Source: Archaeoglobaceae archaeon (GTDB lineage Archaea; Halobacteriota; Archaeoglobi; Archaeoglobales; Archaeoglobaceae). From it: a stretch of DNA of 63,750 bases. Position numbers and translations under genes: made by a program. Positions 33,793 through 39,247 of the stretch are shown here, piece after piece. The stretch is taken from contig WAPX01000065.1 of the NCBI GenBank assembly GCA_015520485.1, forward strand, positions 1 through 63,750. Direction: 5' to 3'. The notes under the pieces are model-generated. The model did no database searches and was not told the origin of the DNA. It worked only from the letters and a program-made list of their open reading frames with translations. Position 1 is the stretch's first letter; each line of letters begins with the position of its first letter.

Positions 33793-34632
33793 CTAAATTA
33801 ACACTCTAATTATATCTTTGTCGTGTACGAGCCCGGCAAACCTGTTCTCCGCATCGAGCACGGGCATGTGGTCTATATCCTTTCTTACCATCTCCCTCGC
33901 ACATTTGCTCACGGACGTGTGTGGATAGACGTGCGCAGGCTTTTTCATGTAATTTTTTACAGGCTCCTTCGGTAGTTTTACGACGCTGACCTCAAAGTAC
34001 TTAACGGTAAAGTCCCTCACGCTATCCCACGTCCAGCTGTCGTCTGTGTCACTGGATGAAGAGTAATGTGTCTGCTCGATGAAGTCCTCTATCAGCGTTT
34101 CTGTGAGCATTATTTTTTCGTCCACTATCCCGCACAGCTCCGCAGACGAATTCAAAACAGGACACAGTTCGGAGTTGCTAATTCTCATTATCTCTCCAAC
34201 TATGTTGAGCGGCGTTTCTTCCCAGACGCAAACTGCTCTCGGAGTCATGAACTCTTTGACGGGCTTGTCAACTGACATTTCCGCTATTTTGGCTATTATG
34301 TCTCTGACCGTGATTATTCCCACAAGTTTATCTCCCTCAAGTACGGGAAGCCTTCTGAAGGGCGTGGAAACGAGTATCTTTACAACCCTGCTAATGGGTT
34401 CGTTAACCTGAACCGTTACGGGTTCGGGAGTCATGAGGAGAGCTATCTGGTCTTCGTCAACCTTTCTGAGTATATCTTTTCTCGTTATTATTCCGGCAAG
34501 TTTTCCGTCTTTAACAACGGGAACGGCGGAAATTTCATACTTCTTGAAGAGTTCCAGAACGTGTTCTCTTCTCCCGGGCAACTCAGCGTATATCACGCTT
34601 TTATTCATAACATCTCCTGCTGTGAGAGACAT
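33793..34632 (-). CDS. Four-CBS-domain protein
   Basis: This 279-residue protein is made of four CBS motifs arranged as two Bateman modules, with starts near residues 1, 63, 125 and 225. Repeated motifs are ISAVPVVKDGKLAGIITRKD, 'RRLPVLEGDKLVGIITVRDI', SELCPVLNSSAELCGIVDEK and IDHMPVLDAENRFAGLVHDK. Such proteins bind adenosine nucleotides or SAM and act as energy or nucleotide sensors. No enzymatic domain is attached. It diverges from sepCysS. Confidence 0.92.
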   Translation of the reverse strand: MSLTAGDVMNKSVIYAELPGRREHVLELFKKYEISAVPVVKDGKLAGIITRKDILRKVDEDQIALLMTPEPVTVQVNEPISRVVKILVSTPFRRLPVLEGDKLVGIITVRDIIAKIAEMSVDKPVKEFMTPRAVCVWEETPLNIVGEIMRISNSELCPVLNSSAELCGIVDEKIMLTETLIEDFIEQTHYSSSSDTDDSWTWDSVRDFTVKYFEVSVVKLPKEPVKNYMKKPAHVYPHTSVSKCAREMVRKDIDHMPVLDAENRFAGLVHDKDIIRVLI

Positions 34633-34769: not shown

Positions 34770-35942
<1,173 letters not shown>

Positions 35943-36048: not shown

Positions 36049-36516
36049 ATGCCAAGTCCCATGGAGATATACAAGCTACTGCCAAAAACGAATTGTGGAG
36101 AGTGCGGAGAGAAAACGTGCATGAGTTTCGCGTTCAAGATCATAAGCAGGGAGAAAAAACTCGAAGAGTGCAAACCTCTGTTTTCACCAAAATTTGAAAA
36201 GAATAGAAAAAAGCTTGAGGAGATGCTTGAAATAGTGAAAAAAGCGGAAGAAACGGGTCTCGTTGTAAACGAGGAGCTGTGCATAGGCTGCGCCAATTGT
36301 GTTGTTTCCTGCCCCGTTCACGTTGAAAAAGACCCCTACAACGCCGCTATGGGACGGGGAATTAAAATGGAAAATCCCATCCTGAGAATAGAAAATGGGG
36401 TCGTGAAGGTAGTGGAATTGAACCTGTGCAGGAGGTACGGAAAGAACAGAACCCTCTGCATCGTGTGCAGGGAAAACTGTCCAACCGATGCGATAAGTTT
36501 TGTTGAGGAGATGTAG
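36049..36516 (+). CDS. FwdG-like polyferredoxin with an N-terminal Fe-S domain
   Basis: This is a 155-residue iron-sulphur protein. An N-terminal four-cysteine FeS domain (TNCGECGEKTCMSF... with CKPL, residues about 15-43) leads to ferredoxin motifs CIGCANCVVSCPVHV (around 82-96) and, after NLCRRYGKNR, CIVCRENCPTDAI at the C-terminus. Such proteins carry electrons to formylmethanofuran dehydrogenase (FwdG/FmdG type) or to related redox enzymes. The start lacks a ribosome site and has TATA-like sequence about 25 bp upstream, so it is probably leaderless. It precedes a FwdB-like gene. Confidence 0.75.
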   Translation: MPSPMEIYKLLPKTNCGECGEKTCMSFAFKIISREKKLEECKPLFSPKFEKNRKKLEEMLEIVKKAEETGLVVNEELCIGCANCVVSCPVHVEKDPYNAAMGRGIKMENPILRIENGVVKVVELNLCRRYGKNRTLCIVCRENCPTDAISFVEEM

Positions 36517-36635
36517 GTTCGCATGCTGCTTCAATTACAAACTTCAATTGCAATACAATAATTTAAGTTAAAAATAAATTAAATAGAAGTTAAGAATTTG
36601 AAAATTTTAAAAATAAATAAAGAGGAGGGTGCTGA

Positions 36636-37820
36636 ATGCAGGAAATAGTTTGCACTGGATGTTCGTGTTTGTGCGATGACGTCGTTTACGGCGATACAGT
36701 GTATCATGCGTGCAGGAAAGGATACCGGCTGTTGACGGGAAAGAAAGAAGAAAATTCGGTGAATGGTGAGAAAACAGACGTCTACAGAGCTCTAAAAGCC
36801 GCAAGAGACGTAATAGACGGAAAAAAACTCCTGATTTTTGGACTCGACAACGTTACCTGCGAGGCTCAGGAGCTTGCACTGAAACTTGCTAAGGATTTCA
36901 ACGCTGCCATTGTTGACCACTCCGCGCTGAGTGGGGGAAAGCTCTTGGAGCTGTCTGAAAGGCTGGATAGCGTTTCCCTCGAGAAGTTCAGAGATGAGGG
37001 GTACGTTTCAATTTACTGGGGTGCAAATCCACATAACAGCATTCCGAGACTTCTATCTCGCTTCACCTACTATCCGAGGTGCGGTAAAAGGCAGAGAGGC
37101 TATGAAGAGGATAGATTTCTTGTCGTCGCAGACGTCAGGAAAAGTGAAACTGCAAAGCTGGCTGAGAAGAGTAAAACCGGATTGTTCATCAGGATCGAAA
37201 AAGATGATGAACTCGTGGACTCGTTTTTAAAGGCTTTAAACGGCAGGGCTGGAAAATACCCTGAAGTGGCGAGAATACTAAAAGAAGTTGAAAAAGCAGA
37301 AGTCAACGCAGTATTTGGAGGAAGTGGGCTGTGTTCTGGGCTGAAAGATTTCGATAAGTTTGAAGATGTGATGAAAAAATCCGGACTTTACTTTATCCCC
37401 GCCACGTCGAAAACGAACATGAGGGGTTTTTTGGAGACTGTGGCTGAGGTAACAGGATGCAGGTGTTACGGTTACGATTTCGAAAGAGGTGCGTGCTTGA
37501 ACCTGAAAGATCTGCCAGAAGTGTTTGCTTGTTGTGAAGCCGTAATGGTAATTGGAGCTGACCCGCTAAGAACTTTACCGCACGAGCTTTCAAAACGACT
37601 CGCTGGTAAGGTAGTGGTTGCGATAAACAGCCTGAAGTCCCTTGTAAGACTGCTAAAACCGAAAGTTACCATTGCAAGCACGCTATCTGCTTTCTCCTCC
37701 GGAACGATGGTCAGACTTGACGGCGTTAAGGTTGAGCTAAAAGAACTGAAGGAAATGAAGGAGAGCGAAGGTAAAACTCTATCGGATGAAGAAGTTCTGA
37801 AGGAATTGCTTTCGATGTAG
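36636..37820 (+). CDS. Divergent FwdB/FmdB-like formylmethanofuran dehydrogenase subunit
   Basis: This 394-residue molybdopterin-oxidoreductase-fold protein is like subunit B of tungsten/molybdenum formylmethanofuran dehydrogenase. The N-terminal Fe-S site EIVCTGCSCLCDD (with CRKG) is intact. VSIYWGANPHNSIPRLLSRF, VVADVRKSETA and SSGTMVRLDGVKVEL match the family in order. However, the stretch that in FwdB carries the metal-ligand cysteine (Ser-Val-Cys-His-Gly) here reads DHSALSGGK (94-102), with no cysteine. It may be inactive, use another ligand, or act on another substrate. Confidence 0.82.
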   Translation: MQEIVCTGCSCLCDDVVYGDTVYHACRKGYRLLTGKKEENSVNGEKTDVYRALKAARDVIDGKKLLIFGLDNVTCEAQELALKLAKDFNAAIVDHSALSGGKLLELSERLDSVSLEKFRDEGYVSIYWGANPHNSIPRLLSRFTYYPRCGKRQRGYEEDRFLVVADVRKSETAKLAEKSKTGLFIRIEKDDELVDSFLKALNGRAGKYPEVARILKEVEKAEVNAVFGGSGLCSGLKDFDKFEDVMKKSGLYFIPATSKTNMRGFLETVAEVTGCRCYGYDFERGACLNLKDLPEVFACCEAVMVIGADPLRTLPHELSKRLAGKVVVAINSLKSLVRLLKPKVTIASTLSAFSSGTMVRLDGVKVELKELKEMKESEGKTLSDEEVLKELLSM

Positions 37821-37828
37821 GTGGTAGC

Positions 37829-38146
37829 ATGTTCGAATTTACGAAGCTGATGAAATTTGACGTTAAGGTCGTCGTGGCAGATGACATTCTGCACGAGGGA
37901 GATAAAGCAAAAGCTTTGATCAGTAAAGGGCTTGCAGAAAAATTTGGCATAAAGAACAGGGGATTTATCAGGCTGACGAGAGGCGAGAGTGTTTGCTTTG
38001 AGGTACTCGTTTCGGAGTTTGCCGAGGGTGTGGACGTGGTAATACCGGATGGGTACTTTGCAAACAGACTGGCAGGGTTTGAAAATCCAAGGCGGTTTAC
38101 GGCTGAGGCTGAAAAGTGTGATGAGGCTGATGTGGATGTTATTTAG
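37829..38146 (+). CDS. FwdD-like molybdopterin-dinucleotide-binding subunit
   Basis: This 105-residue beta-barrel protein is in the place of FwdD, the subunit that binds the molybdopterin guanine dinucleotide of formylmethanofuran dehydrogenase. The segment ISKGLAEKFGIKNRGFIRLT, the strand 'ESVCFEVLVSEFAEGVDVVI' and PDGYFANRLAGFENPRRF correspond to the FwdD barrel and its PxGPWAN motif, but with a changed sequence (PDGYFAN). The short length and divergence match the divergent FwdB-like gene 8 bp upstream, so the pair probably evolved together. Confidence 0.7.
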   Translation: MFEFTKLMKFDVKVVVADDILHEGDKAKALISKGLAEKFGIKNRGFIRLTRGESVCFEVLVSEFAEGVDVVIPDGYFANRLAGFENPRRFTAEAEKCDEADVDVI

Positions 38147-38374: not shown

Positions 38375-39247
38375 ATGCCATCGGAAAGCGACTTCGTTCG
38401 CTCCCTCACCGGATTTGCTCTCGGTGATGCGTTTGGCGCTCCGTTCGAAGGCTTTACGAGCAGGGACGTTGAGAGAAGACTCAAACACTACTCGAAGCGC
38501 AAAATCGTCTCGGATGTGACTGATGACACTATTCAGATGCTCATTCTCGCAGAATCTCTTGCGAGCACCATATACTTCAGCCCGGCCGATTTTGCTGAAA
38601 GGCTGAGGATGTACTACGAGGCGGGAAGGATAAGGCGAATGGGCCCGACGAGCTCTCAGGCTTTGGAGAGGTTGAGAATGGGTTACTCTTGGAAGGATTC
38701 TGGGATCGACTCAGACACATGTGGTTCTGCGATGAGAGTTCCCCCTGTTGGGTTGCTGTACTCCTTTAACCTGAATCTGGTCGAGGAGTATTCCGTGCTG
38801 CAGAGCGTGGTAACTCACAGGGGAAAGGAGGCTATAGCTGGGTGCGTTGCCGTCGCTCTCGCTTACGCCCTCGCCCTCGAAGACGTTGAGGTGGAGGAAA
38901 TGCATCAAGAACTCGTCGAGAGGCTTAAAGCTTTTGACGCATACACGACGATACTTGTGGACAGGGCATTTCTGGGGGAATTCGAGTACAAGGGTACTGC
39001 ACTCGCTTCAGACGTTGTTCCCGCTGCAATTCAGTGCTTTGTCCACTCCGAGAGTTTTGAAGACTGCCTGATTAAAGCGGTCTCTCTTGGAGGAGATACC
39101 GACAGCATAGCCGCAATAGCAGGTGGGTTGAAAGCCCTGAAAAGCGAGCCTGTGCTGAGCTTCAAGCTCGAAGTTGATGAAGAAGAGCTGAAAAGAGCTG
39201 AAGAGTTATCAAAGAGGCTGTGGAAGGTTTACGAGTTCATATCCTGA
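38375..39247 (+). CDS. ADP-ribosylglycohydrolase (DraG family)
   Basis: This is a 290-residue all-helical hydrolase that removes ADP-ribose from proteins or nucleic acids. Metal-binding motifs are VSDVTDDTIQMLILAESL near residue 47, GIDSDTCGSAMRVPPVGLLY near 109, and AVSLGGDTDSIAAIAGGLKA near 235, the DraG signature. GFALGDAFGAPFEG is the family N-terminus. The start is preceded by a TATA-like tct-taat-aaa stretch only, so it is likely leaderless. It is convergent with rqcH. Confidence 0.92.
   Translation: MPSESDFVRSLTGFALGDAFGAPFEGFTSRDVERRLKHYSKRKIVSDVTDDTIQMLILAESLASTIYFSPADFAERLRMYYEAGRIRRMGPTSSQALERLRMGYSWKDSGIDSDTCGSAMRVPPVGLLYSFNLNLVEEYSVLQSVVTHRGKEAIAGCVAVALAYALALEDVEVEEMHQELVERLKAFDAYTTILVDRAFLGEFEYKGTALASDVVPAAIQCFVHSESFEDCLIKAVSLGGDTDSIAAIAGGLKALKSEPVLSFKLEVDEEELKRAEELSKRLWKVYEFIS

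Follow-up and report, generated by a model that had tools for sequence, protein, structure and literature searches.

The window, a 63,750-nucleotide stretch of a contig from an Archaeoglobaceae archaeon, carries three genes (Table 1) encoding relatives of subunits G, B and D of formylmethanofuran dehydrogenase (FMD), and the catalytic-type subunit B lacks the cysteine that ligates Mo/W in FMD (PMC11656701). G-B-D is a conserved module of Archaeoglobales and Methanosarcinia in which this ligand is usual; its loss here is derived and has occurred repeatedly. We propose that the module is an Fe-S electron-transfer unit serving CO dehydrogenase/acetyl-CoA synthase (CODH/ACS) and that in the source genus its metal site has either been given up or lacks any protein ligand, a reading to which we give an even chance.

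Table 1. Features of the G-B-D locus in the window and lone G homologues in two related genomes (window positions unless a locus is named).
Feature	Position	Strand	Description
G	36049-36516	+	CdhE/AcsC-type [4Fe-4S] domain (residues 1-50) and FwdG-type 2x[4Fe-4S] ferredoxin (residues 71-153)
B	36636-37820	+	FwdB-like MGD-fold subunit with N-terminal [4Fe-4S] motif, without metal-ligand Cys
D	37829-38146	+	FwdD-like double-psi barrel (molybdopterin dinucleotide-binding domain), strongly eroded
Ser99 codon AGT	36930-36932	+	Column of Mo/W-ligating Cys118 of FwdB
Lys259 codon	37410-37412	+	Replaces the active-site His290 equivalent
SepCysS gene	34800-35942	+	TIGR02539, 4.4e-164; immediately 5' of G, co-directional
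Four-CBS-domain protein	33793-34632		Divergent from SepCysS
ADP-ribosylglycohydrolase (DraG-like) gene	38375-39247		Immediately 3' of G-B-D
Lone G homologue	L175 9235-9693		Between cdhD and cdhE
Lone G homologue	L176 5991-6449		Between cdhD and cdhE

Window B matches TIGR03129 over its full length (E 6.7e-58) at 196.2 bits, under the equivalog cut-off of 327.8. Its AlphaFold model (pLDDT 92) has FwdB chains as best fold matches in the PDB (8rja_B and 5t5m_B, TM 0.82-0.85), and the N-terminal [4Fe-4S] motif is present as C6, C9, C13 and C26. The initial annotation had taken the ligand Cys to be missing from the stretch DHSALSGGK, and alignment with paralogues bears this out, Ser99 standing in the Cys118 column. 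When window B is aligned with the solved FwdB chains only, a gap falls near the Cys; adding Cys-bearing relatives clears the register (canonical DCTSSVC-HG; relatives DDNSSFC-LG and DDTSSFC-QG; window DHSALS-GG), and Ser99 can be placed because these intermediates bridge the alignment. The canonical residues His119, Arg288 and His290 read G, T and K in window B, the last being Lys in all five aligned species of the source genus. In FDHs the His119 position is a gate, and His290 is among the residues around the metal (PMC11656701).

Since the ligand Cys is missing in all six genomes of the source genus, a sequencing error at Ser99 is ruled out. Selenocysteine is ruled out as well, the codon being AGT and the frame free of stops, and neither alignment nor codon offers a different Cys or a Sec in the ligand column. 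None of the other cysteines makes a good surrogate ligand: C11 and C75 occur also in the Cys-bearing relatives, and the remaining cysteines of window B are not conserved within the genus. C149 is a weak candidate at best, since its position holds Cys or Ser within the genus but Gly in the majority of other members. The triplet is present once in the source genome, and no second, Cys-bearing copy was found across the genus.

The ligand is thus truly missing, but the locus is not the isolated oddity that it had seemed. The G profile was found in 125 of 296 genomes from the phylum; some twelve of these, those with the weakest matches, fall into a group of their own (E 1e-36 to 1e-46). A second, distant G-like group (L177, L178 and L185; E about 1e-37 to 1e-40), from family f7, is solitary, with no B or D adjoining. 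Relatives of B that stand in the order G-B-D are spread through Archaeoglobales and are also seen, going by the organisms that the record titles name, in Methanolobus, Methanococcoides, Methanohalophilus, Methanomethylovorans, Methanoperedens, Methanothrix and ANME-2. The B proteins of the module form one clade in the tree, separate from canonical FwdB. Most members have kept the ligand Cys and lost the catalytic His119 and Arg288: in Cys-bearing B proteins His119 is replaced by L, M or Q and Arg288 by G, V, A or I, the sole exception being one Methanolobus member (L129) with His at position 119. Because both residues are lost family-wide, CO2/formate chemistry in the G-B-D family is, on this sequence evidence, unlikely.

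Four independent changes from Cys to another state were counted on the tree. The five aligned species of the source genus read S, S, S, S and Y, and two species of the genus have a 3-residue deletion right behind the ligand position; genus g8 has a two-residue deletion, family f9 has Y/H, and Methanothrix harundinacea has Ser (SSYSQG), its sisters retaining Cys (L152 4769-5986, L159 9450-10667). Grouping the source genus and g8 as one clade was rejected (p-AU 0.004). The His290 equivalent is gone in all four ligand-less lineages (K, R, gap and D); it is H or Q in 32 of 32 Cys-bearing members and H in the 10 canonical rows. A Ser-ligated centre, one of the options raised in the initial annotation, does not fit these data well: because the replacement varies within the genus and the deletion follows just after it, Ser is unlikely to be a dedicated ligand. 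A broader form of the idea is a working Mo/W-bis-MGD centre that has Ser(O) or no protein ligand, for which DMSO reductase and arsenite oxidase offer parallels, and that would act on a new substrate. The superfamily does have members without an amino-acid ligand, such as AioA (PMC10100899), the change from Cys to Ser arose independently in M. harundinacea, and the source genus retains the fold and the pocket motif residues under strong purifying selection. Such a centre nevertheless seems unlikely to us given the S/Y variation and the deletions within the genus, the replacement of His290, His139 and their neighbours, and the loss from D of a recognisable MGD-binding signature.

The Fe-S clusters show a different pattern. 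Every complete row keeps all 12 cysteines of G and the four cluster cysteines of B, ligand-less lineages included (69 rows for G, one of them truncated at the first Cys). Between the source genome (G000) and G004, dN/dS is 0.094 for B and 0.069 for SepCysS; values in the genus lie at 0.05-0.09, pairs more distant than those reported being saturated and giving no ratio. With a dN/dS of 0.09 B is not decaying, and a pseudogene is ruled out. It could still be argued that the locus is a relic in decay since the cdh cluster moved elsewhere in the genus, given that G003 carries, about 2.4 kb downstream of its G-B-D, a 178-aa cdhC fragment (L038 13494-14030), with an intact cdhC elsewhere, and that the stem branch of the genus is long (0.65; 0.65-0.94 among the multi-row ligand-less lineages). 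Open frames in every complete G-B-D copy of the genus, the low dN/dS, and identities of 95% for G and 93% for B between G000 and G004 at dS of about 0.36 all speak against this, and we regard it as very improbable and already largely refuted. An explanation of the ligand loss by a loss of CODH/ACS was likewise rejected: every checked genome of the genus has cdhA and cdhC (cdhA of G002 being split over two contigs), and g8 is ligand-less yet still upstream of cdh.

Window G matches Pfam PF04060 (4.6e-15), and PDB profile matches assign its two parts to the Fe-S domain of CdhE/CFeSP gamma and to FwdG, respectively. The window locus shows the gene order, the CdhE-FwdG hybrid G and the invariant cysteines of the module. 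The D partner, described before as divergent, is so indeed. Taken alone, the sequence of window D matches no Pfam family, including PF01568, which is matched by 30 of the 35 D family members, and it is recognised through the family profile (FwdD 5t5i_D, E 2e-19) and the fold (FwdD, TM 0.74) only. The molybdopterin-binding match of D is absent or weak in the source genus and present in g8, f9 and M. harundinacea. In L092, the nearest sister that retains Cys, this match of D is likewise weak, and D may therefore have started to erode before the ligand Cys disappeared.

As stated in the initial annotation, no gene for subunit A or C adjoins G-B-D in the source window. FwdA-FwdC lies on contig C55 and the only canonical FwdB (ligand motif CHGP) on C53, beside a CdhB-ferredoxin fusion (L037 8572-10700, G000:C53; TIGR00315, 104.9 bits). 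The fusion occurs throughout the genus; G010 has it as well, adjoining G-B-D. An intact cdhA-cdhC-cooC-cdhD-cdhE cluster is found on C66; this cluster is without a stand-alone cdhB.

A link to CODH/ACS is suggested by gene order. At 14 Archaeoglobales loci cdhA lies 69-328 bases behind D in the same orientation, and the cdh cluster continues downstream as far as the contig extends (cdhABC-cooC-cdhDE); the identities of cdhA, C, D and E were confirmed. Genus g8 and the deepest-branching Archaeoglobales of the sample are among those with this arrangement. Two class-level relatives without G-B-D (G038 and G039) have a lone G homologue inserted between cdhD and cdhE, 4 and 3 bases away from the genes on either side (Table 1). 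In the source genus G-B-D does not adjoin the intact cdh cluster. In Methanosarcinaceae it stands with HdrA/FrhB-like genes, FTR and sometimes a hybrid-cluster protein instead of cdh; the module is often preceded by an FTR-like gene, and some Methanolobus-type genomes have the hybrid-cluster protein together with a small cupin-like protein. One Methanosarcinaceae locus (L135 6950-11640) encodes a hybrid-cluster protein, a cupin-like protein, an FTR-like protein whose FtrB_double_U match is under the cut-off, and then G-B-D. The theme shared by these neighbourhoods would be ferredoxin-level electron transfer. Neighbours of G-B-D in some relatives resemble DNA polymerase DP2, ornithine carbamoyltransferase and NadE; from reading their sequences we take these to be unrelated.

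From the gene order, conservation, ligand losses and folds that the data show, we infer a partner, an electron direction and a state of the cofactor as follows. G-B-D would derive from formylmethanofuran dehydrogenase, of which it keeps G, B and D but neither A nor C, and would exchange low-potential electrons with CODH/ACS via three clusters in G and one in B, the first domain of G belonging to the type that supplies the CdhE corrinoid with electrons. The B and D of most members would still hold a Cys-ligated Mo/W-bis-MGD site, minus the residues for CO2/formate. In the source genus the ligated redox centre would have been given up (Cys to Ser/Tyr, His290 to Lys) while purifying selection maintained the Fe-S relay, with the B-D fold serving as relay and docking body; a residual pterin or unligated metal may still be present in it. 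In favour of this relay we count the invariant cluster cysteines, the four losses, each with that of the His290 equivalent, the unconstrained replacement (S, Y, H or deletion), the low dN/dS, the adjacency to cdh, the hybrid G, the lone G in G038 and G039, and the CODH/ACS cluster on C66. We count against it the distance from cdh in the source genus, the Methanosarcinaceae context, the kept pocket residues, and the four cysteines of FhcB (see below). The redox complex that the initial annotation had considered is best retained in this form, the Fe-S redox role and the CODH/ACS link, which it had not seen, being better supported. More tentatively, G-B-D could be an undescribed CODH/ACS electron-transfer complex, possibly the missing reductive corrinoid activator, whose ancestral Mo/W-bis-MGD site would be dispensable and would have been discarded repeatedly, ligand and facing His going together, leaving a pure Fe-S relay here.

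The evidence on whether a pterin or metal may still be bound in the source genus is mixed. At the 41 positions outside the Fe-S domain that Cys-bearing paralogues have in common with canonical proteins, retention is 70% in the source genus, 82% in g8 and 50% in FhcB (two of the three FhcB rows being from annotated fhcBADC operons on plasmids). W128, R138, S141, R160, D166, R168, D190, D309, P310, R360 and D362 are kept in five of five species of the genus. Going by superfamily motifs, these kept residues presumably include cofactor-binding ones. Many of the 11 are lost in FhcB, where W128, S141, D166, R168, D190 and D309 are mostly gone, so the genus may still bind a cofactor. Pointing the other way, H139, G149, D331 and P332 are changed in the source genus, and its D matches the molybdopterin-binding family weakly or not at all. 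FhcB (plasmid records) also retains the four N-terminal cysteines, so Cys retention is no proof of electron transfer.

The last point bears on whether B-D is a non-catalytic scaffold of the FhcB type, holding a complex together with cofactor and electron transfer irrelevant. FhcB and a separate HdrA-cluster clade have been reported as structural subunits without Mo/W (PMC10100899, PMC12054007), and the ligand column of FhcB is Gly/Ala. The higher retention in the genus, motif residues lost in FhcB included, and the invariance of all cluster cysteines in G and B argue for more than a scaffold, as does the fact that no FwdA or Ftr partner gene adjoins the locus; fhcA/C/D partner genes were likewise not found around G-B-D in the window neighbourhood. 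The regulatory or scaffold paralogue of the initial annotation accordingly keeps a small place, and we consider a scaffold of the FhcB type rather improbable.

Compared with known systems, the window proteins resemble FwdB, FwdD and FwdG (PDB 5t5i, 8rja) in the fold of B and D, the N-terminal [4Fe-4S] cluster of B, the FwdG-type ferredoxin half and the G+B+D content. They differ from FMD by the absence of A, C, Cys118, His119, Arg288 and His290 and by the extra CdhE-type Fe-S domain of G. FhcB of the bacterial formyltransferase/hydrolase complex (PDB 6s6y) is likewise a FwdB homologue without ligand Cys and is reported without Mo/W-bis-PGD (PMC10100899), but it is encoded in fhcBADC operons and has lost fold motif residues that window B keeps. 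CdhE/corrinoid Fe-S protein gamma, through its PF04060 domain, is like the first 50 residues of G, four cysteines included, and shares gene clusters with the module; G, however, has no corrinoid-binding domain. The type II HdrA-cluster non-catalytic molybdopterin-oxidoreductase clade (PMC12054007), also of the MopB family, without ligand Cys and from methane-metabolising archaea, is a separate clade described near FdhG/FhcB and located beside HdrA-MvhD-FdhB, whereas Methanolobus G-B-D keeps its Cys. ElpA of Elp-Hdr (PDB 8rvy), an entry returned by the fold search, is another MopB-type electron-transfer subunit that has lost molybdopterin, but it is a truncated FdhA within an Hdr complex. Since ligand loss is known in FhcB, Nqo3 and the HdrA-linked clade (PMC10100899, PMC12054007), the principle is not new. 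Our search of the open-access literature, with subscription literature outside its range, returned no description of the G-B-D module, its cdh linkage or the repeated ligand loss.

To our knowledge, the supply and withdrawal of electrons at archaeal CODH/ACS and the re-reduction of its corrinoid are only partly known, and G-B-D, which is conserved, includes a CdhE-type Fe-S domain and is encoded together with cdh genes, is a concrete candidate for this electron transfer. The series from Cys-ligated through Ser/Tyr to deleted offers natural material for asking at what point an MGD protein can do without its metal. Annotation pipelines may label G-B-D genes as formylmethanofuran dehydrogenase, and C1 capacity would then be overstated in such genomes.

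The genes flanking G-B-D in the window are listed in Table 1. Any functional link between SepCysS and G-B-D is putative; the identical order, SepCysS before G-B-D, recurs in G004 (locus L087).
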